Below, in pieces: positions 25,943-46,105 of a DNA stretch of 64,000 nucleotides. A program made the translations under genes and the position numbers. The stretch spans positions 124,001-188,000 of the forward strand of contig NCEA01000003.1 of assembly GCA_002280515.1 (NCBI GenBank). Direction: 5' to 3'. Numbering within the stretch: the first letter of the stretch is position 1; each line of letters opens with the position of its first letter. The notes below the pieces were generated by a model. That model worked only from the letters and a program-made list of their open reading frames with translations. It made no database searches and had not been told where the DNA came from. This DNA comes from Rhodobacterales bacterium 32-67-9 (GTDB taxonomy: Bacteria; Pseudomonadota; Alphaproteobacteria; Rhodobacterales; Rhodobacteraceae).

Positions 25943-27613
25943 TCAGTGGGCGTGGCCGTGATCCCAGTCCGACTGCTTGGGGAGCGTCTCGAACGTGTGC
26001 TCCGGCGGCGGCGAGGGCAGGGTCCACTCCAGCGTGTCGGCGTAGGGGTTCCAGTAGTTGTTCTCGGTCACCCGCTTGCCGGCGCGCAACGTGTAGATCA
26101 CGACGCCGATGAAGAAGACGAACGAGGCGAACGACAGGAAGGCGCCCAGTGACGAGACGTAGTTCCAGTAGGCGAAGGCTTCCGGATAGTCGATGTAGCG
26201 GCGCGGCATGCCCTGGCGACCCAGGAAGTGCTGCGGGAAGAAGGTCAGGTTCGAGCCGATGAACATCATCCAGAAGTGCAGCTTGCCCGCCCATTCCGGA
26301 TACTGGCGGCCCGACATCTTGCCGATCCAGTAGTAGACGCCGGCGAAGATCGCGAAGACCGCGCCCAGGCTCATCACGTAGTGGAAGTGCGCCACGACGT
26401 AGTAGGTGTCGTGATAGACCCGGTCGACCGGCGCCTGGCTCAGCACCACGCCGGTCACGCCGCCGACGGTGAAGAGGAACAGGAAGCCGAAGGCCCAGAG
26501 CATCGGCGTCTTGAACTCGATCGAGCCGCCCCACATCGTCGCGATCCATGAGAAGACCTTGATGCCCGTGGGCACCGCGATCACCATTGTCGCCAGCATG
26601 AAGTAGGACTGCTGGGTCAGCGACATGCCGACCGTGTACATGTGGTGCGCCCAGACGACGAAGCCCAGAACCCCGATCGCCACCATCGCGTAGACCATCG
26701 GCAGGTAGCCGAAGATCGGCTTCTTCGCGAAGGTCGCGATGACATGGGAGATGATGCCGAAGCCGGGGATGATGATGATGTAGACTTCCGGGTGGCCGAA
26801 GAACCACAGGATGTGCTGGTAGAGGATCGGGTCACCGCCGCCCGAGGGCTGGAAGAAGGTGGTGCCGAAGTTGCGGTCGGTCAGCAGCATGGTGATCGCG
26901 CCCGCCAGAACCGGCAGCGACAGAAGGATCAGCCAGGCGGTGACGAAGATCGACCAGGCGAAGAGCGGCACCTTGTGCAGCGTCATGCCCGGTGCCCGCA
27001 TGTTGAGGAAGGTGGTGATCATGTTGATCGCGCCGAGGATCGACGAGGCACCCGAGACGTGGACCGCAAAGATCGCGAGGTCCATCGACCAGCCGGCCTC
27101 GTTGGTCGACAAGGGCGGGTAGAGCACCCAGCCGACACCCGACCCGGACTGGTCGTTGCCGCCCGGCGCCAGCACCGAAGCCACGGCGAGCGAGGTGCCC
27201 GCGACATAGAGCCAGTAGCTGAGGTTGTTCATCCGCGGGAACGCCATGTCCGGCGCGCCGATATGCAGCGGCATGAAATAGTTGCCGAACCCGCCGAACA
27301 GCGCCGGAATCACCACGAAGAACATCATCAGGATGCCGTGCGCGGTGACGATCACGTTCCAGAGGTGGCCGTTCGGTGTGCAGGCCTCGTCCGAGGCCAA
27401 CAGCCGCGCGCCCTCCATGCACATGTGCTGCACGCCCGGTTCCATGAGTTCCAACCGCATGTAGACCGTGAAGGCTACCGAGATGAGACCCACGACCGCG
27501 GCCGTGAAGAGGTAAAGGATACCGATATCCTTGTGGTTGGTGGACATGAACCAGCGGGTGAAGAACCCGGGGTGTCCATGTTCACCGTGGCCATGAACGG
27601 CTGCGTCGGCCAT
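25943..27613 (-). CDS. ctaD: Cytochrome c oxidase subunit I, aa3 type
   Basis: A 556-aa catalytic subunit of the haem-copper oxidase in the cytoplasmic membrane, with 12 expected helices. Visible ligands and channels are [14 protein letters not shown] (haem a His), [13 protein letters not shown] (D-channel Asn), [16 protein letters not shown] (CuB His cross-linked to Tyr, with the K-channel side), WAHHMYTVG (two CuB His), and [16 protein letters not shown] (haem a3 and haem a His). Start 27613 gives [18 protein letters not shown] with GGGAG upstream. It lies 158 bp downstream of the cytochrome c2 gene. Subunits II and III are not in the window. Confidence 0.97.
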
Positions 27614-27716
27614 GCTGTTCTCCCATTCCATATGCAAGGCGCGGGGCGCGCAGGTCCCCGGCGAGGCTATGACCCCGTAATAATTGGCCGGAACGGGATG
27701 GGCAATCGAAGAAGCG

Positions 27717-27753
27717 GGCACGGGGCGCGAAAAAATGCCTCGCCCCCCGCGCC
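27717..27753 (-). terminator. Possible terminator after the cytochrome c2 gene
   Basis: GGCACGGGG (27717-27725) can pair with CCCCGCGCC (27745-27753), with one G-U pair and a T-rich loop on the minus strand. It lies between the cytochrome stop and ctaD. Confidence 0.35.
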
Positions 27754-30671: not shown

Positions 30672-31088
30672 TCAGAGCTTGTCGAGCAATGCCAGAAGCC
30701 GGTCGCGTTCGCGCGGGCTGAGATTGCGCGCGGTCATGGCGGATATTTCGGCGGCGACGGGAATAGTCTCGATGAGAAAACGCCGGCCCTCCTCGGTCAG
30801 CGAAATCTCGACCCGCCGGCGATCGGTGGGCGAGGGCGAGGTCGCGATCAGGCCTTTGCGGGCCAGCCGTTCCACCACGCCCTTGGTCGTCGCCGCATCC
30901 ATCGCGACGAGCCGGCCGAGATGGTTCTGCGACAGCGTGCCTTCGTCGCGCAGCTTGGCCAGCACCGCGAACTGACGCGGGGTGATCTCTGGCATCCTCG
31001 CCGAAAAGATCTCCAGATGCCGCTGATTGGCAAGACGCAACTTGAAGCCGATCTGATCTTCCAGCCGATATGGCGCGTTGTCGGTCAC
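30672..31088 (-). CDS. MarR-family regulator, probable repressor of the N-heterocycle operon
   Basis: A 138-aa winged-HTH regulator: YRLEDQIGFKLRLANQRHLEIF, then ITPRQFAVLAKLRDEGTLSQNHLGRLVAMDAATTKGVVERLARKGLI and the wing SPTDRRRVEISLTEEG. Start is a GTG at 31088, the only plausible in-frame start near the motif; GGAGG lies 12 nt upstream. It is divergent from the UPF0280-to-hnr operon, and a dyad overlaps that operon's -35 box. Nicotinate degradation in Pseudomonas and Bordetella is controlled by MarR-type repressors (NicR, BpsR), so an N-heterocyclic ligand is a reasonable inference. Confidence 0.85.
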   Translation of the reverse strand: MTDNAPYRLEDQIGFKLRLANQRHLEIFSARMPEITPRQFAVLAKLRDEGTLSQNHLGRLVAMDAATTKGVVERLARKGLIATSPSPTDRRRVEISLTEEGRRFLIETIPVAAEISAMTARNLSPRERDRLLALLDKL

Positions 31089-31193
31089 GTCGCTTCGATG
31101 CCTCCCTGGCTTGTGCCGGGGAAATCCTAGAGACTTGGCCGGCGATGACAAGCGCCGCCGCGGGCGCCGTGCCGCGCGACAAGTGGAAAATTC

Positions 31194-31226
31194 GTTTGAC
31201 AGCAAACAAAACTCACCGCGTAATCG
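31194..31226 (+). promoter_or_regulatory. Promoter with overlapping MarR-type dyad
   Basis: The dyad GTTTG-ACAG-CAAAC (31194-31207) contains a perfect -35 hexamer TTGACA (31196-31201). A -10-like TAATCG lies at 31221-31226. Repressor binding to the dyad would block the promoter of the operon starting at 31258. Confidence 0.5.
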
Positions 31227-31257
31227 TAGGATGGATCGTCGGTCGTGGAGAGGACCG

Positions 31258-32253
31258 ATGCGAGACGGAAGAAGGCGGAATTCGGTGTCCGGACCGACGT
31301 GGAGCGCAGCGGAGACGGGGCGGGGTGGCCTGAGGCGGGTCATCGCCTGGCCGTCGCGCGGCTGGCCGGACAAGACCCACGGCGCGGACGGACGGCTGCA
31401 TCTCAGCCACGGGCCGATCGACCTGATCTTCGACCTCGGCGGCGCGCCGGAGGAGGTGGCGGCGGCCGAGGCGGCGGCGGGGCGGGCCTTCGACGGCCTG
31501 CTCGAAGCGCTGGTGGCGGAACTGCCGCTCTTGCGCAGCCCGGTGGGGGCCCGGTCGCCCGACCCCGAGGGCGCGGTGGCGCGGCGGATGATGCGGGCGG
31601 TCCGGCCCTTTGCCGACCGGTTCGTCACGCCAATGGCCGCGGTCGCGGGCGCGGTTGCCGATCACATGCTGGATGCGATCCGGGCCGAGGCCGGGGTGTC
31701 CCGTGCCGTGATCAACAACGGCGGCGACATCGCGATCCACCTGATCGGGGCGCAGCGCTACCGTATCGGCATCCACGACTACCGCCAGTTCGGACGTTAT
31801 GCCGGCATCGTCGAGGTCGGCGCCAGCGACGGCATCGGCGGCGTCGCGACCAGCGGCTGGCGCGGGCGCAGCCACTCGCTCGGCATTGCCGACGCGGTGA
31901 CGGTGCTGGCGGCGACGGCCGCCGGGGCCGACGCGGCGGCGACGCTGATCGCCAATGCCGTCGACCTGCCCGGTTCGCCCCGCGTGACCCGGCGCCCGGC
32001 GCGGGATCTGTCGCCCGACAGCGACCTTGGTGACCGGCTGGTGACGGTCGACGTGGCGGAGCTTTCGCCCGGCGAGATCGCGGTGGCACTGGGTGCGGGC
32101 GTGGTGCGGGCCCAAGACTTTGTTGCGCGCGGCCTGATCAGGGCGGCGTTCCTGTCGCTTCAGGGCCAGGCGCGCGGTGTCGGCGCGGGCTTTGCCGCGG
32201 CGATGCGAATCGAGGACGATGGATCGAAGTCCGGAGGAGGCGAGGACCGATGA
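31258..32253 (+). CDS. UPF0280 family protein (ApbE-superfamily-like)
   Basis: A 331-aa protein of the uncharacterised UPF0280 family (COG2122), distantly related to ApbE flavin transferases. Visible features are GPIDLIFDLGGAPEEVAAAEAAAGRAF, RFVTPMAAVAGAVADHMLDAI, INNGGDIAIHL, and GGVATSGWRGRSHSLGIADAVTVLAATAAGADAAATLIANAVD, with His/Asp clusters that could bind metal or flavin. ATG 31258 is preferred to 31231 because GGAGAGG lies just upstream. Its stop overlaps the next start (ATGA). It is the first gene of the operon leading to the molybdenum hydroxylase and ring reductase, so a role in that pathway or in flavin attachment is inferred, not shown. Confidence 0.85.
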   Translation: MRDGRRRNSVSGPTWSAAETGRGGLRRVIAWPSRGWPDKTHGADGRLHLSHGPIDLIFDLGGAPEEVAAAEAAAGRAFDGLLEALVAELPLLRSPVGARSPDPEGAVARRMMRAVRPFADRFVTPMAAVAGAVADHMLDAIRAEAGVSRAVINNGGDIAIHLIGAQRYRIGIHDYRQFGRYAGIVEVGASDGIGGVATSGWRGRSHSLGIADAVTVLAATAAGADAAATLIANAVDLPGSPRVTRRPARDLSPDSDLGDRLVTVDVAELSPGEIAVALGAGVVRAQDFVARGLIRAAFLSLQGQARGVGAGFAAAMRIEDDGSKSGGGEDR

Positions 32254-32837
32254 CAAAGGCGAAAATCCGCAAGATCGTGACCGTGGTCGAGGAGGTCCGG
32301 AGCGAGATGGGCCAGGACATCGCGCCGCCGACCCGCCGCGCCGCCGCCATCGCGGTGATCGAAAACCCTTTCGCGGGCCGCTATGTCGCGGACCTCGAAG
32401 ACCTGATGGTGATCGGCGAGGAACTGGGCGGCATTCTTGGCGAGGCCTGCGTCAAGGCGCTCGGCATCCGCCCGGGAGAGGCGCAGAGCTACGGCAAGGC
32501 CGCCCTCGTCGGCGAGAACGGCGAGCTGGAGCACGCCGCCGCCATCCTGCATCCGCGTCTTGGAAAGCCGTTGCGCGCGGCGGTGGAGAAGGGGGCGGCG
32601 CTCGTCCCCTCGAACAAGAAGCGCGGACCGATGGGCCATCCGCTCGACGTGCCGCTCGGCCACAAGGACGCGGCCTATGTGCGGTCGCATTTCGACGGGA
32701 TGGAGGTGCGGGTGACCGATGCCCCGCGCGCCGACGAGATCCTCGTCGCGGTCGCGGTGACCGACAGCGGCCGGCCGCTGCCCCGCGTCGGCGGGCTGAC
32801 CCACGCCGAGGCCGAGGGCAAGGACGGGCTGCGCTGA
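32250..32837 (+). CDS. DUF1185 (AA_synth) family protein
   Basis: A 195-aa protein of the PF06684 'amino acid synthesis' family. It has IRKIVTVVEEVRSEMGQDIAPPTRRAAAIAVIENPFAGRYVADLEDLM near the N-terminus, SYGKAALVGENGELEHAAAILHPRLGKPLR in the middle and VPSNKKRGPMGHPLDVPLGHKDAAYVRSHFD after it. The family name is historical; no reaction is established to my knowledge. It overlaps UPF0280 by four bases and the FAD-subunit gene follows after two bases, so it is a fixed operon member and a candidate for an unassigned catabolic step. Confidence 0.85.
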   Translation: MTKAKIRKIVTVVEEVRSEMGQDIAPPTRRAAAIAVIENPFAGRYVADLEDLMVIGEELGGILGEACVKALGIRPGEAQSYGKAALVGENGELEHAAAILHPRLGKPLRAAVEKGAALVPSNKKRGPMGHPLDVPLGHKDAAYVRSHFDGMEVRVTDAPRADEILVAVAVTDSGRPLPRVGGLTHAEAEGKDGLR

Positions 32838-32839
32838 GC

Positions 32840-33673
32840 ATGACGGTGTTCCGGCCCCATACACTTTCCGACGCGCTCGGCTACCTGGCCGAGGCGCCGG
32901 CCCTCGTGCTTTCCGGCGGGACCGATGTGTTCCCGTCACTCGGCGACCGTCCCGCGCCGCCCCGCATCCTCGACGTGACGGCTGTCTCCGACCTCCGGGG
33001 GATCGCGTTGGACGGCGGGCATTGGCGCATCGGTGCGGGCGTGACCTGGGCCGAGATGCTCCGTTCCGACCTGCCGCCGGCGTTCGACGGGCTGAAGGCC
33101 GCCGGGCGGCAGATCGGGTCCGTGCAGATCCAGACCACCGGGACGCTTGCGGGCAACATCTGCAACGCCTCGCCCGCCGCCGACGGTGTGCCGGTTCTCC
33201 TCGCGCTTGACGCGTCGGTCGAATTGGCGTCGACCGCCGGGCGCCGCGTCGTGGCGCTGGCGGAGTTCGTGACCGGGGTGCGAAAGACCGCCCTTCACCC
33301 CGGCGAGATCGTGACCGCGATCCTCGTGCCGCGGATCGGTGGCGATGTGCGCTCCGGCTTCGAGAAGCTCGGCGCGCGGGCCTATCTCGTCATTTCCATC
33401 GCCTCGCTTGCGGCGGTCCTCCGGTTCGAGGGTGGCCGGCTGGCGGAGGCGCGGATCGCGGTCGGCGCCTGTTCGCCGGTGCCGATGCGGCTTTCGGCGC
33501 TGGAGCGCGACCTGATCGGGGCGACGGCGGGGGCGCTTGGCAGCGTGGTGCGGGCAGAGCATTTCGACGGCCTCGCGCCGATCGACGACGTCCGCGCCTC
33601 GGCGGCTTACCGACGCGAGGCCGTCGCGACGCTGGCGCGGCGGTTGCTGGACAGATGCGGGGCGGCGGCATGA
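32840..33673 (+). CDS. Molybdenum hydroxylase FAD-binding (medium) subunit
   Basis: A 277-aa subunit of the CoxM/XdhB type. The FAD pyrophosphate loop is ALVLSGGTDVFPSLGD near residue 25; a second FAD-contact motif is QIQTTGTLAGNICNASPAADGVPVLLALDA, and the C-terminal CO_deh_flav_C domain starts at YLVISIASLAAVLRF. It passes electrons from the iron-sulfur clusters of the next gene product to an acceptor. The start follows the DUF1185 stop by two bases and its stop overlaps the next start (ATGA). Confidence 0.92.
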   Translation: MTVFRPHTLSDALGYLAEAPALVLSGGTDVFPSLGDRPAPPRILDVTAVSDLRGIALDGGHWRIGAGVTWAEMLRSDLPPAFDGLKAAGRQIGSVQIQTTGTLAGNICNASPAADGVPVLLALDASVELASTAGRRVVALAEFVTGVRKTALHPGEIVTAILVPRIGGDVRSGFEKLGARAYLVISIASLAAVLRFEGGRLAEARIAVGACSPVPMRLSALERDLIGATAGALGSVVRAEHFDGLAPIDDVRASAAYRREAVATLARRLLDRCGAAA

Positions 33674-36369
33674 GCGGGATCGGCTTCACTCTGAACGGTC
33701 GCGCCGTCGAACATCCGGGCGACGGATTCGAACGGCTGTCGCGGGTGCTGAGGTCGGGGCTGGGTTGCGCCGATGTGAAGGTCGGCTGCGATGCCGGCGA
33801 TTGCGGCGCCTGCACCGTGCTGATCGATGGAAAGCCGGTCTGTTCCTGCATCACCGCCGTCGGCCAGGCCGAGGGCAAGACGGTCGAGACCCTGGCGGGC
33901 CTGCGCGACAATGACGACGTTTTTTCAAGGCTTTCCGCTTCGTTCCTCGCGCATGGTGCGGCGCAGTGCGGCATCTGCACGCCCGGCATGATGGTCTCGG
34001 CTACCGCCCTCCTGCGCGCGGTTCCGGCGCCGACGGAAGCCGAGGTGCAGGACGCGCTGGGCGGGGTTCTCTGCCGCTGCACCGGCTATCGCAAGATCAT
34101 CGACGCGGTGCGGGGGCTGCCCGCCCCGGTGGCGGAGAGCGGCGGGGTCGGGGCCGGCATCACCCGCCTCGACGGCGCCCGCAAGGTCGAGGGGCGCGAA
34201 GTCTTCGGCGACGATGCCGCCCCAGCCGATGCGCTGGTGCTGAAGGTCATCCGGGCGCCGGAGGATCACTGCCGCTTCCGCTTTGGCGACCTCGACGCCT
34301 ATGCGGCGGCCCGTGGCCTCGACCTGATCCTGACGGCGCGGGACGTGCCGGGAAAGAACCGCTTCGGCACCATCCCTGGCTTCATCGACCAGCCGGTCTA
34401 TGCCGAGGACACGGCGCTTTTCCGGGGCGAGGCGGTGGCTTCGGTCATCGGGCGCGCGGAGGTCATGGCGAAGCTGGATCTCTCAACCTTCCCCGTGGCT
34501 TGGGAGACGATCCTCGCGACGCGCGACCCACAGGTGGCCAAGGGCATGGCAGAGTTCCACCCCGGCCGCGCCGAAAACGTCATGTGCGCCGGCTTCGTCC
34601 GGAAAGGCGACGCCGAGGCGGCGCTGGCGCGGGCCTATATCACCGCCGAAGGCACGTTCGAGACCCGCTTCATCGAACACGCCTATATCGAGCCGGAGGC
34701 GGGCTTTGCCGACTGGACGGACGGACGGGTCGAGGTTCACGGCGGCACCCAGGCCCCGCATATGAACCGCGACTCGCTGGCCGAGATCCTTGGTCTGCCG
34801 GTGGCGGCGATCCGGATCGTTCCGACGGCGGTCGGCGGCGGCTTCGGGTCAAAGCTCGACATCTCGTTCCAACCGCATGTGGCGCTGGCCGCGATGCGGC
34901 TCAAGCGGCCGGTCAGGATCGTCTATACGCGTTCGGAATCAATGGCTTCCACGACGAAGCGCCATCCCGGTCTGATGCGGGTCCGGGCAGGGGTGACGAA
35001 GGATGGCAAGCTCTCGGGCTTCGCCTTCGAGGGCACGTTCAACACCGGCGCCTATTCCTCATGGGGGCCGACCGTGGCGAACCGGGTGCCGGTCCACGCC
35101 GGCGGGCCTTATGCCCATGCCGACTATGTCGCGCGGGCCGAGGGGGTGCACACGAACTGCGTGCCGGCGGGTGCGTTCCGGGGCTTCGGTGTGCCGCAGG
35201 CGGCCATCGCGCAGGAGGCGGTCTTTGACGATCTGGCGGCGCAGTTGGGCATGGACCGGCTGGAGTTCCGGCATTTCAATGCGCTCGACAACGGCATTCC
35301 GACGACGACCGGGCAGGTTTTCGACGGCGCGGTCGGGATACGGCCCTGCCTTGAGGCACTGCGTCCCGCGTGGTGTCGGGCTTTGGAAAGTGTAACGGAA
35401 TTCAATGCGAAAGATGGCGTTCTTCGCAAAGGCGTGGGCATTGCCTGTGGCTGGTACGGGTGCGGCAATACCTCGCTTCCCAACCCCTCGACGATCCGGG
35501 CCGGGATCGCCCCGGACGGGCGGATCGTGCTTCATCAGGGTGCGATGGATATCGGTCAGGGCGCGAATACCGTGATCGCGCAGATCTTCGCGGAAGCCTT
35601 TGGCGTCGATGCGCGGCTGGTGGAGATCGTCGGGCCGGACACCGACGTCACGCCCGATGCCGGCAAGACCTCGGCCTCGCGGCAGACCTTCGTGTCGGGC
35701 AACGCGGCGCGACTGACGGGGCTGGCGCTCCGGGCCGAGGTTCTGCGCCGGATCAATGCAACGGACGGGCGGATCGGGCTGGAGCGGGGCGCGGTCACGG
35801 TCACCGCCCCCGACGGTACCATCCACCGCGCAGCACTGCCGGAGGGCGACGGTTACGCGCTGGAAGCGGTCGAGAGCTATGACCCGCCGACGCTGCCATT
35901 GGACGAAAACGGCCAGGGCGTGCCCTATGCCGTCTATGGTTACACCGCGCAGATGGTGGAATTGACCGTCGATACCGGGCTTGGCACGGTCACGCTCGAC
36001 CATATCCATGCCGCGCATGACGTCGGCCGGGCGATCAACCCGGTCCTGGTCGAGGGCCAGATCCACGGCGGCGTGGCGCAGGGGATCGGGCTGGCGCTGA
36101 TGGAGGAATATATCGCCGGGCGCACCGACAACCTGCACGACTACCTCATTCCGACGATTGGTGACGTGCCGCCGATCACCAGTCACATCGTCGAGGTCGT
36201 GGACCCGCACGGGCCTTACGGCGCCAAGGGGTTGGGCGAACATGTGCTGATCCCGACGGCACCGGCGATCCTTTCGGCGATCCGCCATGCGACCGGCGCC
36301 AGGGTGACGCGCCTGCCGGCGACGCCGGACCGGGTTCTGGCGGCGATCCGCGCTGCGATGGAGAATTAG
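33670..36369 (+). CDS. Fused 2Fe-2S and molybdopterin subunit of a xanthine-dehydrogenase-family hydroxylase
   Basis: An 899-aa fusion of two usually separate subunits. Residues 1-150 are the iron-sulfur part: plant-type cluster VGCDAGDCGACTVLIDGKPVCSC and the helical cluster CGICTPGM plus CRCTGYRKI. From about 160 on is the molybdenum part, with VGGGFGSKLDIS, AGAFRGFGVPQ, MDIGQGANTVIAQI and the catalytic Glu in YGAKGLGEHVLIPTAPA. Such enzymes hydroxylate heteroaromatic rings with water; with a 6-hydroxynicotinate reductase next door, nicotinate or a similar N-heterocycle is the best guess. Electrons pass to the FAD subunit encoded upstream. Confidence 0.93.
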   Translation: MSGIGFTLNGRAVEHPGDGFERLSRVLRSGLGCADVKVGCDAGDCGACTVLIDGKPVCSCITAVGQAEGKTVETLAGLRDNDDVFSRLSASFLAHGAAQCGICTPGMMVSATALLRAVPAPTEAEVQDALGGVLCRCTGYRKIIDAVRGLPAPVAESGGVGAGITRLDGARKVEGREVFGDDAAPADALVLKVIRAPEDHCRFRFGDLDAYAAARGLDLILTARDVPGKNRFGTIPGFIDQPVYAEDTALFRGEAVASVIGRAEVMAKLDLSTFPVAWETILATRDPQVAKGMAEFHPGRAENVMCAGFVRKGDAEAALARAYITAEGTFETRFIEHAYIEPEAGFADWTDGRVEVHGGTQAPHMNRDSLAEILGLPVAAIRIVPTAVGGGFGSKLDISFQPHVALAAMRLKRPVRIVYTRSESMASTTKRHPGLMRVRAGVTKDGKLSGFAFEGTFNTGAYSSWGPTVANRVPVHAGGPYAHADYVARAEGVHTNCVPAGAFRGFGVPQAAIAQEAVFDDLAAQLGMDRLEFRHFNALDNGIPTTTGQVFDGAVGIRPCLEALRPAWCRALESVTEFNAKDGVLRKGVGIACGWYGCGNTSLPNPSTIRAGIAPDGRIVLHQGAMDIGQGANTVIAQIFAEAFGVDARLVEIVGPDTDVTPDAGKTSASRQTFVSGNAARLTGLALRAEVLRRINATDGRIGLERGAVTVTAPDGTIHRAALPEGDGYALEAVESYDPPTLPLDENGQGVPYAVYGYTAQMVELTVDTGLGTVTLDHIHAAHDVGRAINPVLVEGQIHGGVAQGIGLALMEEYIAGRTDNLHDYLIPTIGDVPPITSHIVEVVDPHGPYGAKGLGEHVLIPTAPAILSAIRHATGARVTRLPATPDRVLAAIRAAMEN

Positions 36370-36370
36370 G

Positions 36371-37816
36371 ATGGTCCGCCAAGCCGTTGAATCCCGTATG
36401 GAAGGCAAGATCCGTTGCGATGCCTGTCCGGTCATGTGCTACATCGCCGAGGGCCGCGCCGGGGCCTGCGACCGCTACGCCAACGAAGGCGGTGATCTGG
36501 TGCGGCTCGATCCCTTCACGGTGCTGGAGGCAGCGAAAGAGGGCGATGGCCAGCTGGTGCCCTTCCTTGAACTCGAGGCCGGCGAATGGGACGGCGATAT
36601 CCTGCGGACCGAGCGGCCCTTCATCACCGCGATCGGCGCGGGCACGACCTATCCCGACTATAAGCCTGCCCCCTTCATCGTCGCGCAAAGCCATGACGGG
36701 GTCGACATGGTCACCGTGGTGACCGAGGGGATATTCTCCTACTGCGGCGCCAAGGTGAAGATCGACACCGACCGCTTCCTCGGGCCCGAGGCGGCACCGG
36801 TCCGGGTCGAGGGCGAGGCCATCGGCCATGTGATGACCGCCGAATACGGATCGCAGATGCTGTCGCTGGGCGGGGTCCACCATCTGACCGGCGGCGGCAA
36901 GAAGGAGGGCCGCGTCACCTGCGACGCGCTCCTCCGGCTTTGCAACCGGGAACCGGTGACGGTGACCATCGACGGCGGGGCCGAGGTGGTGTTGGAGGCC
37001 GGCAAGCCGCCCGTGGTGAACGGGGTGGAGGAGCATCTGATGCGGGTCGGCTGCGGCTCGGCCACCATCGGCATGTTCGCCAAGCAGTGGCACGGGCTGG
37101 TGGACGAGGTGGTGGTGGTCGATGATCACATCACCGGGGTGCTCTCGGAACATCAGGCCGGCAAGCTTCTGGGGATGGAGCCGACGGGCATCAAGATCCT
37201 CGGCCACAAGTCGACGCCGGGGCGGTATTTCCGCGTCGCCGATCCGGGCACCGGCTGGGGCGGGACCAATGTCGAGGATCCCCTGACGATCCTCGGGCCG
37301 TGGCGGGCGCCGGCGCGGCCGGGGCTGACGCTTCTCATGGTATCCACCACCGGGGAACAATGGGGTTACTACGTGCTGGACGCCGACCTGAGGCCGGTGC
37401 CGGCCGCATTGCCGGAAAGCCTCAGGACCTCGGTCGAGCGGGTCGCCGAGAATTGCGAGCCGTCGGTGACTTCGGTCCTTTTCATGGGCGGGGCGGGCGG
37501 CAGCCTGCGCGCGGGCGTGACCGAAAACCCGGTGCGGCTGACGCGTTCGGTGCGCGAGGCGGTGACGAATGTCACCTGCGGCGGGGCGGAATGCTTCATC
37601 TGGCCGGGGGGCGGCATCACCTTCATGGCCGATGTGACCGAGATGCCGTCGAACGCCTTCGGCTATGTGCCGACGCCGGCGCTGGTGGCGCCGATCGAGT
37701 TCACCATGCGGCTTGACGACTATGCCGCCCTTGGCGGGCATATCGGGCAGGTCCGCCGGGTCGAGGACATCGCCGGCGAGATCGAGCGGCGGGTCTCGGT
37801 GAAGCGCGGGCGCTAG
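36371..37816 (+). CDS. hnr: 6-hydroxynicotinate reductase-like iron-sulfur protein
   Basis: A 481-aa protein starting one base after the hydroxylase stop. The N-terminus has four closely spaced Cys, IRCDACPVMCYIAEGRAGAC (residues 14-33), fitting a 4Fe-4S site; further Cys and Gly-rich segments occur (SYCGAKVKIDTDRF, RVGCGSATIGMFAKQWHG, VTCGGAECFIWPGGGITFM). I recognise it as the Eubacterium barkeri 6-hydroxynicotinate reductase family, which reduces 6-hydroxynicotinate with ferredoxin to 1,4,5,6-tetrahydro-6-oxonicotinate. Gene order with the molybdenum hydroxylase and a nearby enamidase supports this. The substrate could be another hydroxylated N-heterocycle. Confidence 0.75.
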   Translation: MVRQAVESRMEGKIRCDACPVMCYIAEGRAGACDRYANEGGDLVRLDPFTVLEAAKEGDGQLVPFLELEAGEWDGDILRTERPFITAIGAGTTYPDYKPAPFIVAQSHDGVDMVTVVTEGIFSYCGAKVKIDTDRFLGPEAAPVRVEGEAIGHVMTAEYGSQMLSLGGVHHLTGGGKKEGRVTCDALLRLCNREPVTVTIDGGAEVVLEAGKPPVVNGVEEHLMRVGCGSATIGMFAKQWHGLVDEVVVVDDHITGVLSEHQAGKLLGMEPTGIKILGHKSTPGRYFRVADPGTGWGGTNVEDPLTILGPWRAPARPGLTLLMVSTTGEQWGYYVLDADLRPVPAALPESLRTSVERVAENCEPSVTSVLFMGGAGGSLRAGVTENPVRLTRSVREAVTNVTCGGAECFIWPGGGITFMADVTEMPSNAFGYVPTPALVAPIEFTMRLDDYAALGGHIGQVRRVEDIAGEIERRVSVKRGR

Positions 37817-37863
37817 AGGTTTTCGGATTGGGCGCCCGGTTCCCGGGCGCGAGACATGTCTCC

Positions 37864-37887
37864 CCTCCGCTGCCGGGGCAGCGGAGG
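37864..37887. terminator. Bidirectional hairpin between hnr and the enamidase gene
   Basis: CCTCCGCTGCC (37864-37874) pairs perfectly with GGCAGCGGAGG (37877-37887). It lies between two convergent genes, just before repeat copy 3. Confidence 0.6.
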
Positions 37888-37896
37888 TTCGGGTTT

Positions 37897-37926
37897 GCCT
37901 CCGGCGGAGGTATTTGGAAACAGGTG
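37897..37926 (+). repeat. Intergenic repeat copy 3
   Basis: GCCTCCGGCGGAGGTATTTG followed by GAAACAGGTGA. It contains the stem CCTCC-GGC-GGAGG followed by TATTT, as in copies at 57441 and 63916. It lies between convergent genes, eight bases from the enamidase stop. Confidence 0.7.
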
Positions 37927-37934
37927 AGGGGGGC

Positions 37935-39131
37935 TCAGCCCTGCACCACCTCGGGTAGCCGGGTCGCGGGCGGGGTGTTGCGGCTGCGGGCGGTGCGGAC
38001 CACGCCGTCGATCACAGTCATGCCGACGCCTGGGAGGTTGCCCTGCCGGATCGAGCCGAGCATGTCCTTGCCGGGCGCGTGCTGCGCCATGTCGATCAGG
38101 ATGAAATCGGCTGATTTGCCGGGTTCGATGATGCCGCAGTCGAGGTCGCGCATACGCGCCGTGTTGCCGGTGGCGAAGCAGAAGGCGATCTCGGCCGGGA
38201 CGTCGCCCAGCGAGGAGAGCATCGCGATCATGCGCAGGATGCCCAAGGGCTGGACGCCGGACCCGGCCGGCGCGTCGGTGCCGAGGATCACGCGTTCCGG
38301 TTGGCCAAGCTCGAAGGCGGTGCGCATCGCCAGCAGGCCCGCTCGTTCGTTGCCGTTATGGACGATCTCGATCCCCCTCAGGCAGTTTTCGCAAAGGCAC
38401 ATGATCTGGTCATCGGGCAGCGCCGTGTGGCCGCCGTTGATATGGCCGATGATGTCGGCGTCGGCCTCCAGCACCACGTCCTTGTCGATCAGGCCGGAGC
38501 CGGGGATCGAGGGGCCGCCGGTGTGGATCGTCGACTGGATGCCGTATTTGCGCGCCCATTTGACCATCTGCCCGGCGGTCTCTCCGGCCTTGACCGAGCC
38601 AAGTCCGACCTCGCCCAGCAGCTTCACGCCGGCCTCGGCAAGCTCCTTGAAGTCGCTCTCGACCATGCCCTCTTCGAGGACCGGGGCGCCGGAATGGACC
38701 TTGACGCCGGAGGGGCGGAAATTCTCGTACCAGCGCTGCGAGGCGATCGCCATCGCCTTCAGCCCGACGATGTCCCTCGGGCGGCCCGGCGCGTGGACCT
38801 CGCCGGCCGAGATCATCGTGGTGACGCCGCCGTGGAGGCAGGAATCGATCCAGTTCAGCTGCTGCTGGCGCGGGGTGAAATCGCCTATGACCGGGTGCAC
38901 GTGGCTGTCGATCAGGCCGGGGCAGAGCGTCACGCCCCTGGCATCGACCACCGTCGTGGCGCCGTCGGTGTCGAGATCCTTTGCGTAGCCCACCGCGACG
39001 ATCCGGTCGCCCTCGCAGACCACGCAGTCGCCGTCGATCAGCGGTTCCTCGATGCGGCCCGAGAGGATCTGGCCGATATTGCGGATGACGAGCTTGGTCT
39101 TGCCGGCGGGGGCAGGGGCGGGATCGGCCAT
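37935..39131 (-). CDS. ena: Enamidase-like amidohydrolase
   Basis: A 398-aa amidohydrolase-superfamily protein. It has the metal motif GLIDSHVHPVIGDFTPRQQ, then LHGGVTTMISAGEVHAPGRP, GVKVHSGAPVLEEGM, GEVGLGSVKAG, TIHTGGPSIPGSGLI, IGHINGGHTALPD, ILGTDAPAGSGVQPLGILRM and a C-terminal SRNTPPATR. This order of motifs matches the Eubacterium barkeri enamidase, which opens 1,4,5,6-tetrahydro-6-oxonicotinate to 2-formylglutarate and ammonia. It is convergent with hnr but lies 77 bp downstream of a DctD-like regulator on the same strand, placing it at the end of the TAXI transporter/two-component region. Start 39131 gives MADPAPAPAGKTKLVIRNIG. Confidence 0.8.
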   Translation of the reverse strand: MADPAPAPAGKTKLVIRNIGQILSGRIEEPLIDGDCVVCEGDRIVAVGYAKDLDTDGATTVVDARGVTLCPGLIDSHVHPVIGDFTPRQQQLNWIDSCLHGGVTTMISAGEVHAPGRPRDIVGLKAMAIASQRWYENFRPSGVKVHSGAPVLEEGMVESDFKELAEAGVKLLGEVGLGSVKAGETAGQMVKWARKYGIQSTIHTGGPSIPGSGLIDKDVVLEADADIIGHINGGHTALPDDQIMCLCENCLRGIEIVHNGNERAGLLAMRTAFELGQPERVILGTDAPAGSGVQPLGILRMIAMLSSLGDVPAEIAFCFATGNTARMRDLDCGIIEPGKSADFILIDMAQHAPGKDMLGSIRQGNLPGVGMTVIDGVVRTARSRNTPPATRLPEVVQG

Positions 39132-39208: not shown

Positions 39209-40513
39209 TCAGGCGCTGATGCCGTGGCGCTTCATCTTGTCGTTCAGCGTCCGGCGCGGCAGGCCGAGGAGCTGGGCGGCGCGTTCGGTATTGCCGCGGC
39301 AGCGGTCGAGGGCGGCGCGGATCTCGCGCGCCTCGAAGTCGAGGAGGCGGTCGGCCAGCGTGTCCCCGGTGATCGCCCGCGCCGCGTCGGGGCGGTCGCT
39401 GTCGATGCCGAGGGCGAAGCGTTCGGCGGCGGCCTTCAGTTCGCGCACGTTGCCGGGCCAGGCGCGGCGGGAAAGGGCGCCACGGCTGGCGAAGGTGACC
39501 GGCGGCGCCTCGCGGCCGTGACGGGCGGCGGCAAGGGCGACGAAATGCGCGAAGAGGAGCGGGATGTCCGAGGCCATGCCGGAAAGCGGCGTGGTGGCGA
39601 TCTCGGCCCCGGCGAGGCGGTAGAAGAGATCGGGGCGGAAGGTGCCCTCGTAGCTCATCGCCTTGAGATCGGCCTTGGAGATCGCGATGACCCGAAGGTC
39701 GAGCGGGCGCAGCCGGTTTTCGCCAAGGCGTTCGACGGCGCGTTCCTGGAGCGCGCGGAGAAGTTTTGCCTGAAGCGGAAGCGGCATCGCCTCCACCTCG
39801 TCGAGCACCAGTGTGCCTCCCGAGGCCAGTTCGAGCTTGCCGGGCTTGTCGGTGGCGGCCCCCGGGAAGGCGCCGGCGGCGTGGCCGAAGACCTCGGCCT
39901 CGAAGAGCGCCTCGGGCAGGGCGGCGCAGTTCAGCGCGACATAGGCGCCGCCGGCGCGGCGGCTGGCGCCATGCAGCGCGCGGGCGACAAGCTCCTTGCC
40001 GGTGCCGGTCTGGCCGGTGACGACAAGATCGACGTCAAGGGGGGCGAGCGCTGCGATGCGGGCCCGGAGCGCGGCGATGGCGGGACTTTCGCCGAGGATC
40101 GCGTCGGGGGTGAGAGTGGATTGCAGCCGCGCAAGCTCTTCCCGCGTCGCGCGGGCCTTCAGCGTGCGGTCGATGACCAGCAGGAGGTGCCCGGCATCGT
40201 AGGGTTTTTCGAGGAAATCCTCGGCGCCGTCGCGGATCGCGCGGACCGCCTGGGCGACGTCGCCGTGGCCGGTCATGACGATCACCGGGTGGTCGCCGCC
40301 ACGCTCCTTCAGCGCCGCGATGAGGCCGAAACCGTCCAGCCCGGGCATCCGCAGATCGGTGAGGATGACGCCGGGATCGGCGGTGTCGAGCGCGGCGAGC
40401 GCCTCGGCGGCGCCGGGAAAGCTCATCACCTCATGGCCGCCCGCCTCGATCAGGTCGGCGGCGGCGGCGAGGTGGTCGGCGTCGTCGTCGACGATGAAGA
40501 CAAGGCCACTCAT
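39209..40513 (-). CDS. Sigma-54-dependent response regulator, DctD-like (copy 1)
   Basis: A 434-aa three-domain activator. The receiver has VDDD (9-11) and the phosphoacceptor Asp53 in LTDLRMPGLDG. The AAA+ domain has Walker A VTGQTGTGKELVARALHG, Walker B GGTLVLDEVEAM and R-finger region FRPDLFYRL. The sigma-54 contact loop reads GAFPGA instead of GAFTGA. The C-terminal Fis-type HTH is NTERAAQLLGLPRRTLNDKMKRHGI. Its ATG overlaps the stop of the kinase gene by four bases. It probably controls the TAXI transporter genes encoded upstream. Confidence 0.9.
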   Translation of the reverse strand: MSGLVFIVDDDADHLAAAADLIEAGGHEVMSFPGAAEALAALDTADPGVILTDLRMPGLDGFGLIAALKERGGDHPVIVMTGHGDVAQAVRAIRDGAEDFLEKPYDAGHLLLVIDRTLKARATREELARLQSTLTPDAILGESPAIAALRARIAALAPLDVDLVVTGQTGTGKELVARALHGASRRAGGAYVALNCAALPEALFEAEVFGHAAGAFPGAATDKPGKLELASGGTLVLDEVEAMPLPLQAKLLRALQERAVERLGENRLRPLDLRVIAISKADLKAMSYEGTFRPDLFYRLAGAEIATTPLSGMASDIPLLFAHFVALAAARHGREAPPVTFASRGALSRRAWPGNVRELKAAAERFALGIDSDRPDAARAITGDTLADRLLDFEAREIRAALDRCRGNTERAAQLLGLPRRTLNDKMKRHGISA

Positions 40514-42282
40514 TCCGCCGCCTTCCCGAGGGCCGCCGCGACCGGCAGGGAGACAGTGACGGTGGTGCCGCGACCGGGGTCGGAGGCGATGTCGATCCGG
40601 CCGCCGAATTCCGTCACGATGGCCTGGCTGATCGAGAGGCCGAGGCCAAGCCCCTCGCCGCCGATCTTGGTGGAGAAAAAGGGCTCCGTCACCCTCGCCA
40701 GGTCCTCGGGCGAGATGCCGGGGCCGGTGTCTGAGACGGTGAGGAAGGCGGTGCCGTCGCCGGTGCCGGTCGTCACGGTGACGGTCGCGCCGTCGCGCCC
40801 CTCGACCGCGTCGAGCGCGTTGAGAAGCAGGTTGAGGCAGACCTGTTCGAGCCGCACCGGGCCGGCCATCACGATGGGCGCGGGGGCGGCGGGGCGGAAG
40901 GCGGGCGTCATGCCGGCCGATTTCGCCCGAGGTGCCACGAGGTCGAGCGCGTTCTCGGCGACCTTGTTGAGGTCGGTGATCTGCCGTGTGTTCTGCTCTT
41001 TCCGGCTGAAGCTTTTCAGGTGCTTCGTGGTGCGTTGCATCCGGCGGATCAGGTTCCGCGCGGTGCCGATGCGGGCGCTGGTCTTCGCCGCGTCGGCGGA
41101 GAGTTCGGCGGCGGCGAGCGTCGCCTCCATCGCCGCGAGAGGTTGGCTCATCTCGTGCACGATGGCGGCCGACATGCGGCCGAGGGCGGCCATCTTTTCG
41201 GTATGGACGAGGGTTTCCTGGGCGGCGCGCAGGTCCGCCTCGGTCTTGCGCCGCGCCTCGATTTCGTGCGCGAGTTCGTGGGTGCGTTCGGTGACGCGCG
41301 CCTCCAGCATCGCGCCCTGACGCAGGCGCAGCTGGAGGAGTTGCCGGCGCTGGTTCAGGATCATGGCGACGGCCGTCGCGGCCATGGCGAAGAGGGCCGC
41401 ACCCGCCGCCCAGAGCCCGGCGGCGAGCGCCAATGGGGCGAGCGGTGCCGCGCTGATCACCCGCCAGCCGTCGGTCTCGATCGTAGCCGAGCGGCCCCGC
41501 AGCCGCGCGCCGTCGGGGCCGGTCAGCACCAGCGGATCGACGGCGTCACCGGCGGCGAGAAGCGGCGGCGCGGTGGCAAGGTCGATCCCGTCATAGGTCC
41601 GCACCCCGGCGAGCCTGGCGAGCGCGTCGCGGCCGAGCGGCACCAACGGGCGGTAGCGCCAGTTGTCGACGCCTGAAAGGAAGACCACACCGTCCTTGTC
41701 GGCAATCGCGATCGAGACGCCGGCGCTCTTCCACGTCTCTTCGAGCGGCGTCAGGTCGATCTTGGTGGCGATCACGGCGGGCGCGTCAGCCGGGCCGATG
41801 CGCGACGACAGGAAATAGCCCGGCGTGCCGGTCGTGACGCCGATGGCGTAGAAGCCGCCGCGCCCGGCAGCGAGCGCGTCCTTGAAATAGGGGCGGAAAC
41901 CATAGTTCTGGCCGACGAAGCTCAGCCCGGTGTTCCAGTTCGATGCGGCGATGACATGGCCGTCTTGGTCCATCAGGTAAAGATGCGTGGCGCCCGATGT
42001 CGCGGCGACGGTTTCAAGATACCGGCTCGCCGCGTTGGCTGCGGCGGCAGCGCCGGGCAAACTCCGGTCCGACAGCGCGCGCCGGATCCGCTCGTCCTCG
42101 GCGGCGACATCGGGCAGGTAGCGGAAGCGCTCGATCTCGCTCTCGATGGCGCGGCGGGTCAGGATCAGCGATTGCTCAAGCTTGCCGTCGAGGGCGCGGA
42201 CGCCCGCCCGGTAGCTGAGCGCGAAGGCGACGCCGGCCGCGACGAGGGCCACGGCAAGGAAGATCAGCAGGATGCGGCGCAT
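40510..42282 (-). CDS. DctB-like sensor histidine kinase (copy 1)
   Basis: A 590-aa membrane kinase. One N-terminal helix (MRRILLIFLAVALVAAGVAF) and a second near residue 300 frame a periplasmic double-Cache-like sensor domain (THLYLMDQDGHVIAASNWN, GVTTGTPGYFLSSRI). A short coiled coil follows, then the H-box VHEMSQPLAAMEATL with His376, an N-box NLLLNALDAVEGRDG and G-boxes DTGPGISPED and GEGLGLGLSIS. DctB homologues sense C4-dicarboxylates, but related proteins sense other carboxylates. Start 42282 has GAGGA nine bases upstream. It is separated from DUF1850 by 122 bp. Confidence 0.9.
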   Translation of the reverse strand: MRRILLIFLAVALVAAGVAFALSYRAGVRALDGKLEQSLILTRRAIESEIERFRYLPDVAAEDERIRRALSDRSLPGAAAAANAASRYLETVAATSGATHLYLMDQDGHVIAASNWNTGLSFVGQNYGFRPYFKDALAAGRGGFYAIGVTTGTPGYFLSSRIGPADAPAVIATKIDLTPLEETWKSAGVSIAIADKDGVVFLSGVDNWRYRPLVPLGRDALARLAGVRTYDGIDLATAPPLLAAGDAVDPLVLTGPDGARLRGRSATIETDGWRVISAAPLAPLALAAGLWAAGAALFAMAATAVAMILNQRRQLLQLRLRQGAMLEARVTERTHELAHEIEARRKTEADLRAAQETLVHTEKMAALGRMSAAIVHEMSQPLAAMEATLAAAELSADAAKTSARIGTARNLIRRMQRTTKHLKSFSRKEQNTRQITDLNKVAENALDLVAPRAKSAGMTPAFRPAAPAPIVMAGPVRLEQVCLNLLLNALDAVEGRDGATVTVTTGTGDGTAFLTVSDTGPGISPEDLARVTEPFFSTKIGGEGLGLGLSISQAIVTEFGGRIDIASDPGRGTTVTVSLPVAAALGKAAE

Positions 42283-42404
42283 CGCCGTGGTCCTCGACTG
42301 GTCCGGTCGTGCCTGTGCCACCGCCACGTTTGCCCCTGTTGCGCTGGGATTCGTCGCAAAGCGTAGTCGAGCGCGCGGCCGAGGTCACGGGCGTGTCGCA
42401 TCGC

Positions 42405-42770
42405 CTAGTCCGGGCAAGGCGCGAGGCGGATCGCCGCGCCGGGCTCCGCGCCAAGCTCCTGGCAGGTGGCGCCGTCGCAAAGCCGCCAGCCGCCGCCCGT
42501 CGCGCCCGAGGCGGCGAGCGTCAGGTCCGGCACCGGGGCGAGGTCGGGTGTCCAGACCCACCAGCCGTCGACCAGACGGGCGCCGGGGCCGGGGTCCATC
42601 CCGGCGCCGGATCCCTTGACGGCGGCCTCGGTCAGGCGGAGGGCGCCGTCCGCGATGCGCCAGCTTTCGCGCCATTCCGTCCGTTCGACCGAATGGCGCC
42701 ATGTCAGGTCGAAGCCCCCCGAGGCGAGCGTCAGCGCCGTGGCGCCGACGAGGAGGCAGGCGCCGGTCAT
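42405..42770 (-). CDS. DUF1850 protein associated with TAXI TRAP transporters
   Basis: A 121-aa protein with a hydrophobic N-terminus (MTGACLLVGATALTLASGGF) and the DUF1850 pattern FDLTWRHSVERTEWRESWRIADGALRLTEAAVKGSGAGMDPGP. Such proteins are typically encoded beside TAXI-family TRAP permeases and are thought to be accessory, without a proven role. Two Cys near the C-terminus (LCDGATCQE) may form a disulfide if the domain is periplasmic. Its ATG overlaps the permease stop by four bases. Confidence 0.8.
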   Translation of the reverse strand: MTGACLLVGATALTLASGGFDLTWRHSVERTEWRESWRIADGALRLTEAAVKGSGAGMDPGPGARLVDGWWVWTPDLAPVPDLTLAASGATGGGWRLCDGATCQELGAEPGAAIRLAPCPD

Positions 42771-44869
42771 GCCGGCCGGACGGCGCGGCCGCGCCAGATC
42801 CCGAACGCGAAGACGGCCGCCAGCAGGAAGCCCGCCTCGTCGGTCATCGGCAGGGCGGCGATGAGGGTGATCGCGGCAAGGGCGGCGAGTCCGCGCATCG
42901 GCCAGGACAGCGGCCGCCCGAGCCAGCCGATGACCGCCGTGCCCCAGAGGCCGATGGCGATCACGGTCTTGGCGACGATGTAGGCGACGGCCGGCACGAA
43001 GCCCATCGCCTCGGTCAACGGCCCGCCGTCCTGAAGCATCAGGGCCGGCGTATAGACCGCCATGAAGGGGATGACGAAGCCGGCGGCGGCGACCTTGATC
43101 GCCTCCATGGAAATCTTCAGCCCGCTTTCCCGGGCGATCGGGGCGGCGGCGAAGCAGGCAAGCGCCACGGGCGGGGTGAGGTCGGCGAGGATGCCGAAGT
43201 AGAAGACGAACATGTGGCTGACGATCAGCGGCACGCCGAGCGCGAGGAGGGCGGGACCGGCGATGGACGAGGTGATGATGTAGTTGGGGATCGTCGGGAT
43301 CCCCATGCCGAGCACGATGCAGGTGATCATCGTCAGGATCAGCGACAGGATCAGGCTCTTGTCGCCGACATGGACGATGAACTGGCCGAAGGTATTGGCG
43401 GCGCCGGTCAGCGTCATGGTGCCGATGATGATGCCGACGAGCGCGCAGGCGATCCCGACCGGCAGCGCGGTCTTCGCCCCCTCGGCAAGGCTGTCACGGC
43501 AAAGGCCCAGCGTCGCGCGTCCGCCCTTCGACAGGGCGTTCCAGCCGATCAGCGCGGCGATGGCCACGGCGACCGGCAGGATGCCGAATTCGAAGAAGGC
43601 GGCGGCGATGGCGCCGAGGCCGATCCAGAAGAGGACGCGGATTACGCCGGCGGGCAGGCCGAGCGCCACCGAACCGCCGAGGATCAGCATCACCGTCATG
43701 GCAAAGCCGATGGTGCCGGCGAAAAGCGGCGTGAAGCCCGAGAACAAGAGGTAGACCAGAACCGCCAGCGGCAGGATCAGGTACCAGTTCTCCTTCAGCG
43801 CCCGCATTGGCGAGGGCAGGTCGGCCTTGGCCATCCCCCTCAGCCCGTGACGCCCGGCTTCGAGATGGACCATCCAGAAGGCCGAGGCGAAATAGAGGAT
43901 GGCGGGAATGAGCGCCGCCCGCACGACTTCGATATACTCGACGCCCAGCGTCTCGGCCATGATGAAGGCGACCGCGCCCATCACCGGGGGCATGATCTGG
44001 CCGCCCATCGACGCAGTCGCCTCGACGCCGCCGGCGAAGGCCGGGCGGTAGCCGAAACTTTTCATCAGCGGAATCGTGAACTGGCCGGTGGTCACGACAT
44101 TGGCGACGCCGGAGCCCGAGATCGTGCCCATGAGGCCCGACGAGACGACCGCGACCTTGGCAGCACCGCCCTGCTTGTGGCCGACGAGGCCGAGCGAGAC
44201 ATCGGTGAAGAGCTTGATCATCCCGGCGCGTTCGAGGAACGAGCCGAAGAGAATGAAGAGGAAGATGTAGGACGACGACACATAGGTCGGGATGCCGTAG
44301 ATGCCTTCGGTCCCGTAGGCCATGTGGTCGATGATCTGGCTGAAATCGTAGCCGCGATGGTTGAGCGGCGCCGGCAGGTACTGGCCGAAGAAGCAATAGC
44401 CAAGGAAGCTGCCGGCGATGATCGGCAGCGCCGGACCCATCAGCGACCATGCGGCGGCAAAGACAGTGACGAGGGCCACGATGCCGAAAGCGATGTCGCG
44501 CGGCAAGGGATCGCCGGCGCGCAGGATCAGCGGCGTGTATTCCCACCACTGGTAGAGCGCCACGGCGACACCGGCGAAGGCCATCGCCCAGGCCAGCGCC
44601 TTCATCGGCGGGGCTTGGCGCTTCAGCGCTGCCAGAAGCGGGAACCCGAGAAGCGTCAGGAACCCGACATGGACGGCCCTGACGATCTGGCTGGAGAGGT
44701 CGATCAGATGCGCGGCGGTGGCGATCTGGAAGACCGAGAAGGCGACGGCGATCCAGAAGAGCGCGCGGCCCTCCGGTGTCGCCGGAAAGCTTCCGGCCAA
44801 GGGATCGTGCAGCCCGAGGTCGGGCGCGTCCGCCGGAATGTCGTGATGGTCTGGGCCGTGTGTGGCCAT
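42767..44869 (-). CDS. TRAP transporter fused permease, TAXI type (4TM-12TM)
   Basis: A 700-aa membrane protein fusing the small (DctQ-like) and large (DctM-like) TRAP subunits, as is usual with TAXI binding proteins. Roughly 18 hydrophobic helices are visible. Signature segments are GSFLERAGMIKLFTDVSLGLVGHKQGG, SGLMGTISGSGVANVVTTG, GGVEATASMGGQIMPPVMGAVAFIMAE, GMGIPTIPNYIITS and PPVALACFAAAPIARESG. It uses an ion gradient to take up a carboxylate delivered by the binding protein. ATG 44869 has GGAGGGG upstream. The binding-protein gene lies 63 bp upstream. Confidence 0.94.
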   Translation of the reverse strand: MATHGPDHHDIPADAPDLGLHDPLAGSFPATPEGRALFWIAVAFSVFQIATAAHLIDLSSQIVRAVHVGFLTLLGFPLLAALKRQAPPMKALAWAMAFAGVAVALYQWWEYTPLILRAGDPLPRDIAFGIVALVTVFAAAWSLMGPALPIIAGSFLGYCFFGQYLPAPLNHRGYDFSQIIDHMAYGTEGIYGIPTYVSSSYIFLFILFGSFLERAGMIKLFTDVSLGLVGHKQGGAAKVAVVSSGLMGTISGSGVANVVTTGQFTIPLMKSFGYRPAFAGGVEATASMGGQIMPPVMGAVAFIMAETLGVEYIEVVRAALIPAILYFASAFWMVHLEAGRHGLRGMAKADLPSPMRALKENWYLILPLAVLVYLLFSGFTPLFAGTIGFAMTVMLILGGSVALGLPAGVIRVLFWIGLGAIAAAFFEFGILPVAVAIAALIGWNALSKGGRATLGLCRDSLAEGAKTALPVGIACALVGIIIGTMTLTGAANTFGQFIVHVGDKSLILSLILTMITCIVLGMGIPTIPNYIITSSIAGPALLALGVPLIVSHMFVFYFGILADLTPPVALACFAAAPIARESGLKISMEAIKVAAAGFVIPFMAVYTPALMLQDGGPLTEAMGFVPAVAYIVAKTVIAIGLWGTAVIGWLGRPLSWPMRGLAALAAITLIAALPMTDEAGFLLAAVFAFGIWRGRAVRPA

Positions 44870-44932
44870 CGGTTTCCCCTCCCCGGAAGCCGTTGGTGCC
44901 GGGCGGCGCGGCGGCCGCCCGGTTCCTTGAGC

Positions 44933-45883: not shown

Positions 45884-46105
45884 GCTGTCCTCCCATTGAC
45901 GCATCGTCCCGCCCGGTTGGCCGGACGGGGATGGGATTTGCTAGTCGCTCCGGTGCGGCACCGACAAACCCTTTTTAACGCCCGCATGAATTTTCCCGGC
46001 AGGTTCCCGCCACGCGCGGCGCAGCTTCCTGCCGCGGCCTTGCGTGTTCCGGCTGGCCTTCGCCCCGTCGCCTTCGTTAGACTGTGGCCCCGGAGGAGGA
46101 GGCAG

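Follow-up and report, generated by a model that had tools for sequence, protein, structure and literature searches.

We find that a 64,000-nucleotide stretch of the Rhodobacterales bacterium 32-67-9 genome (3.7 Mb), part of contig C49 (NCEA01000003.1, positions 124,001 to 188,000) and called the window below, carries a compact locus that is probably a system for the reductive catabolism of nicotinate. Its products would hydroxylate a nicotinate-type ring, reduce it and open it by hydrolysis, a chemistry that is well supported because the predicted ring opener is an enamidase, the regulator is kin to a repressor that senses 6-hydroxynicotinate, and the locus resembles a published cluster. The individual reactions, the route of the electrons and the roles of two further proteins, UPF0280 and AA_synth, are proposed from gene content, layout, homology, co-occurrence and the position of a predicted operator. 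The system has already been described in relatives, and extracts of PMC3511419 put the route in print for aerobic alphaproteobacteria; what is added here is a constant partner of the ring reductase with a flavin-transferase-like fold, a likely replacement for the enamidase, and the operator. The parts of the locus are as follows.

30672-31088, minus strand: MarR regulator, BpsR-like (Pfam MarR; the whole domain lies inside these coordinates)
31194-31207, no strand: predicted MarR operator, the palindrome GTTTG-N4-CAAAC (sequence pattern)
31258-32253, plus strand: UPF0280 with an ApbE-like fold (NF003322, 359 bits against a cut-off of 290)
32250-32837, plus strand: AA_synth, DUF1185 (PF06684, 243 bits; solved relatives 2qtp, E 1e-93, and 3byq)
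32840 (ATG)-33673, plus strand: flavin adenine dinucleotide (FAD) subunit of a molybdenum hydroxylase (FAD_binding_5, CO_deh_flav_C)
33670-36369, plus strand: fused iron-sulfur/molybdenum (FeS/Mo) subunit of the hydroxylase (MoCoBD_1, MoCoBD_2, Fer2_2)
36371-37816, plus strand: relative of 6-hydroxynicotinate reductase (HNR), named from annotated relatives
37935-39131, minus strand: enamidase relative (2VUN match, E 4.8e-110)

UPF0280, AA_synth, the FAD subunit, the FeS/Mo subunit and HNR form, in that order, a five-gene operon with intergenic gaps of -4, 2, -4 and 1 bases. The MarR gene lies ahead of it on the minus strand and the enamidase gene converges on it. The short gaps, together with the conservation of these genes in relatives described below, speak against a chance grouping. 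A first-pass annotation of this DNA had named the MarR, hydroxylase, HNR-like and enamidase-like genes, and domain and homology matches bear these out at the coordinates it gave; its account of the operon fell short, UPF0280 and AA_synth having been overlooked.

In the pathway we propose, nicotinate would be hydroxylated at C6 by the FAD and FeS/Mo hydroxylase, and 6-hydroxynicotinate would release the MarR protein, which would otherwise repress the operon at one operator. HNR would convert 6-hydroxynicotinate to 1,4,5,6-tetrahydro-6-oxonicotinate (THON) with electrons passed from NADPH through a ferredoxin-NADP reductase to ferredoxin, and the enamidase would open the ring to give 2-formylglutarate and ammonia. 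UPF0280 would be devoted to maturing HNR, most likely by attaching its flavin, and AA_synth may act at or near ring opening.

The same set of hydroxylase, HNR and enamidase serves nicotinate fermentation in the anaerobe Eubacterium barkeri. The window enamidase is 45.3% identical over 384 residues to the solved E. barkeri enzyme (2VUN), which it matches with 371.6 bits where the next solved chain reaches 31.2. Six residues that we take to be metal ligands of the enamidase (His92, His94, Glu189, His218, His245 and Asp301) are conserved in 2VUN and in all 16 enamidases compared. The THON and enamidase chemistry of the E. barkeri fermentation is confirmed in extracts of PMC9304392.

HNR matches no Pfam or NCBIfam model, and its name comes from annotated relatives for that reason: 26 plasmid records carry a relative with 64.7-73.4% identity, at least 14 of them annotated as 6-hydroxynicotinate reductase. 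The name also draws on PMC3511419, through a Bradyrhizobiaceae homologue with 42% identity to E. barkeri HNR. There are at least 593 HNR relatives in named genomes, the closest among the matches listed being that of Defluviimonas salinarum (91%), which most likely makes the organism its kin, and 20 of 21 other genomes of the genus have an HNR match. Eight cysteines (16, 19, 23, 33, 125, 184, 228 and 362) are conserved in 50 of 50 HNRs; a plasmid relative (L027) is without Cys184. A search of PDB sequences returned no solved relative (best E 0.088), and the predicted model, of middling quality with a mean predicted local distance difference test (pLDDT) score of 69.7, had no PDB fold match at E <= 0.001. 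In one genome (G064, C1:2969811-2971261) the HNR match is split into two adjoining pieces.

From the relatives in named genomes we kept 80 loci, chosen for HNR, of which 59 have full 10 kb flanks. A ferredoxin-NADP reductase lies near HNR in 24 of these 59, and the window genome has two full-length relatives of that reductase elsewhere (61% and 59%). The hydroxylase, judged from its scores, is related to nicotinate dehydrogenase at family level only: the FeS/Mo chain matches 3hrd with 245.5 bits for chain A, 205 for chain B and 118.9 for chain D, scores whose summing is rough, and its best single solved chain is an aldehyde oxidoreductase (370.8 bits). In clusters of the Rhizobium and Bradyrhizobium type (L023, L031, L051, L075-L108) the place of the FAD and FeS/Mo hydroxylase is taken by a molybdenum protein with a cytochrome c tail.

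The best solved matches of the MarR protein are 2nnn (107.7 bits) and BpsR (6pcp, 96.4 bits), followed by generic MarRs at 42 bits and below. BpsR responds to 6-hydroxynicotinate and has been crystallised with it, the contacts being Tyr15, His23, Arg26 and His32 (extracts of PMC6837509). Tyr7, Arg18 and His24 of the window protein match three of these four contacts, and among 67 HNR-linked MarRs Tyr15 is kept in 66, Arg26 in 67 and His32 in 65, with all three in 64. The window MarR may thus work like BpsR, without being assigned to the BpsR type on three of four contacts.

The palindrome GTTTG-N4-CAAAC between the MarR and UPF0280 genes is likely the operator of this regulator, a prediction made from its place upstream of the operon. 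It is the sole copy in the genome, for which even base use would predict 3.5; a reversed control pattern also occurs once, so the argument is one of position and not of count. The 80 named loci hold 29 copies, 20 of them within 400 bases upstream of HNR, against 0-2 copies for each of nine permuted half-sites. Promoter zones, which make up 9.6% of the sequence, contain 27 of the 29, many in near-identical Bradyrhizobium stretches; a copy occurs in 10 of the 62 other loci, and 53 of the 80 have no exact copy in a promoter zone. Allowing one mismatch gave 53 sites in promoter zones against 49 outside, to which we attach little weight. BpsR differs in binding a nic promoter, and extracts of PMC6837509 describe its operator as unclear.

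We searched for HNR (E <= 1e-20) and UPF0280 (E <= 1e-15) in an alphaproteobacterial sample of 240 genomes and a phylum-wide sample of 299, which have four positives in common. HNR was found in 38 and 21 genomes respectively and UPF0280 in the identical 38 and 21, with 36 of the 38 UPF0280 proteins above the curated cut-off; the two samples together give 55 distinct genomes with both proteins and none with one alone. Kinship among the genomes makes them non-independent, and no probability is drawn from the co-occurrence. The 59 fully flanked loci have UPF0280 near HNR in 57 cases, and just as often a hydroxylase of one type or the other; AA_synth is near in 56 and MarR in 49. The two loci without UPF0280 nearby (L033 and L072) carry it at another place in the genome. 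The match in the L072 genome (L110, genome G276) carries an in-frame TAG. That UPF0280 is a dedicated partner of HNR is near certain. It occurs in the same genomes and has an ApbE-like fold, and is therefore probably an HNR maturation factor.

How UPF0280 would act on HNR is less clear-cut. HNR reportedly carries a covalent flavin (Alhapel 2006, who are also said to have found the first three pathway enzymes in nine Proteobacteria), and a flavin transferase would fit such a protein. The UPF0280 model has a mean pLDDT of 86.9, and a fold search with it places DVU1097 first and only DUF375 or ApbE-type proteins at ranks 1-41, with 25 matches at E <= 0.001; the Pfam ApbE model touches 29 of the 49 members compared, the strongest match being at 4.8e-5. 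For the catalytic Ser, His and Asp of ApbE the picture is mixed: Ser199 and Asp225 are the same in all 49 members and sit in ApbE-like motifs, and no His was seen, as read from the motifs rather than from a superposition. A rival reading is that UPF0280 is not a flavin transferase and is instead an HNR subunit, or supplies persulfide sulfur for the HNR clusters, a role like the one suggested for COG2122 in homocysteine synthesis, and we give this reading a little less than an even chance. The template modelling scores of the fold matches are low (0.24-0.50 on the query), the window protein scores 15.5 bits with the Pfam ApbE model, whose gathering score is 25.6, a UPF0280 profile finds only 2o34 as significant among PDB sequences and no ApbE chain, and the same reading of motifs gives no clear counterpart of ApbE His257. 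The ApbE target motif D-x-x-[S/T]-G-A-[S/T], taken from extracts of PMC12052999 on ApbE flavin transferases, is found in 0 of 50 HNRs; this counts against the flavin role proposed above, and canonical ApbE flavinylation of HNR is rejected. Extracts of PMC5764234 say that COG2122 homology seems not to reach the flavin-binding region of ApbE, and cite the suggested persulfide role. We found no open-licence PubMed Central paper for UPF0280. With both sides weighed, UPF0280 as the flavin transferase for HNR has at best about an even chance, and perhaps only one in three.

AA_synth is tied more loosely to HNR, being present in 34 of the 38 HNR genomes of the alphaproteobacterial sample and in 15 HNR-free genomes. 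Its genes also adjoin enamidase-like genes (39-43% identical) in four stretches in which no HNR was found (L114, L115, L116 and L120), and such pairs perhaps belong to another ring-opening pathway that shares AA_synth. A role for AA_synth as 2-formylglutarate decarboxylase was considered on grounds of neighbourhood and set aside.

The ring opener varies between clusters. Among the 59 fully flanked loci an enamidase gene is present in 35, HyuA in 8, both in none and neither in 16; the chance of zero overlap is 3e-4, and the HyuA loci are not independent, because seven of the eight are Rhizobiaceae by name and the eighth is a Hyphomicrobiales metagenome-assembled genome. Whole genomes of these eight lack an enamidase at E <= 1e-30 in seven cases, and one has a 53% relative. 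Fifteen of the 16 genomes with neither gene nearby were searched (L059 was left out): 13 have an enamidase elsewhere (71-91%) and two do not (L041 and L072). Seven plasmid HNR loci were opened, of which five have HyuAB and no enamidase and two the reverse. The 240-genome sample gives the same picture, with a close enamidase (68-100%) in 14 of the 38 HNR genomes and none close in 24; HyuA stands beside HNR in 15 of those 24 (11 families) against 0 of the 14 (Fisher P 1e-4). Neither gene was seen nearby in the remaining 9 of 24, where several contigs, of 4 to 12 kb, are too short to establish absence. Enzymes of the hydantoinase/oxoprolinase families, to which HyuAB belongs, open lactams with ATP, and on this pattern HyuAB is a good candidate for taking the enamidase's place in other lineages. 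The wider proposition, that the UPF0280 subfamily forms a separate class of flavin transferase dedicated to HNR and acting at a non-ApbE site, and that lineages differ in opening THON with a metal-dependent enamidase or with HyuAB as an ATP-dependent lactamase, is tentative and less likely than not.

The same three-step chemistry might act on another N-heterocycle, such as a different pyridine carboxylate, with nicotinate merely the family name. This is unlikely, and several results do lean that way or otherwise weigh against a nicotinate system. Ring openers (enamidase or HyuAB) and hydroxylases (xanthine-dehydrogenase type or cytochrome-c-tailed molybdenum protein) differ between clusters, and the window hydroxylase reaches the cut-off of no NCBIfam hydroxylase model. 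The window HNR would be linked to that of E. barkeri only through the Bradyrhizobiaceae homologue that extracts of PMC3511419 give as 42% identical to it. The first-pass annotation had proposed an enamidase phylogeny against the E. barkeri protein; the tree, once built, placed 2VUN with AA_synth-linked, HNR-free relatives and outside the HNR-linked clade at weak support (0.686), which does not settle the substrate, and it was dropped as proof. The identity of 2VUN to those HNR-free relatives is up to 44.4%, against 45.3% to the window enamidase, and a genome rated 99% complete (G118) has a 79%-identical enamidase and AA_synth (L121, L122) with no HNR match. In the regulator, BpsR His23 is Phe in the window protein and Phe or Tyr in 63 of the 67 HNR-linked MarRs; the better-scoring 2nnn carries that Tyr and Arg as well, which leaves the His as the one telling residue of the pocket. 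Against another substrate stand the near-constant Tyr, Arg and His of that pocket and the likeness to the clusters of nicotinate users in PMC3511419, as far as its extracts describe them. Nicotinate thus remains the substrate we favour.

Next to the enamidase gene, 39209-45904 encodes a sigma-54 response regulator, a histidine kinase, a fused TRAP permease and a TAXI binding protein. That these are the sensor and transporter of the system, as their adjoining position and TRAP relatives of low identity (35%) in L035 and L086 might suggest, is very unlikely and was rejected, since they are not within 10 kb of HNR in the nearest named relative (L029), and ABC transporters accompany many of the clusters. 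One such ABC locus, at the edge of contig C43 of this genome (L127:377-5000), has a second AA_synth, a conserved protein, and a LivK and a LivH that share 78% and 79% identity with their counterparts in a Fuscovulum HNR plasmid cluster; by this resemblance it is probably the uptake system of the pathway. Another protein, of 457 residues and matched by neither Pfam nor NCBIfam (L026:14894-16264), recurs beside LivK-type transporters in HNR clusters. The first-pass annotation had also placed ctaD and cytochrome c2 nearby: COX1 (ctaD) is at 25943-27721, and no cytochrome c2 was seen among the scanned open reading frames, which covered part of the window. As it had said, the aldehyde and dicarboxylate steps after ring opening are absent from the window; the later fermentation genes of E. 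barkeri were sought within the window only, with no search made elsewhere in the genome.

Extracts of PMC3511419 (2012) describe reductive nicotinate clusters in Azorhizobium caulinodans, Bradyrhizobium japonicum, Rhodopseudomonas palustris HaA2 and strain SG-6C, with the first three steps, a transporter and two conserved proteins. Named Bradyrhizobium and Afipia loci carry HNR (70-74%), UPF0280 and AA_synth, and we infer that the latter two are those conserved proteins; the loci we fetched have the cytochrome-c-tailed hydroxylase, unlike the FAD and FeS/Mo type in the window. We found no open-licence PubMed Central paper pairing '6-hydroxynicotinate reductase' with 'enamidase'. The three-step chemistry of the first-pass annotation is strengthened by the enamidase, the regulator and the likeness to published clusters; that this organism would reduce the pyridine ring rather than oxygenate it is a conjecture, and the route had been reported before.

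Although an anaerobe is the best-known source of the reductive route, named genomes contain at least 593 HNR relatives, and one is present in each of 26 plasmid records. That HNR and UPF0280 are distributed identically bears on how HNR acquires the covalent flavin it is said to carry and on the function of the UPF0280/COG2122 family.

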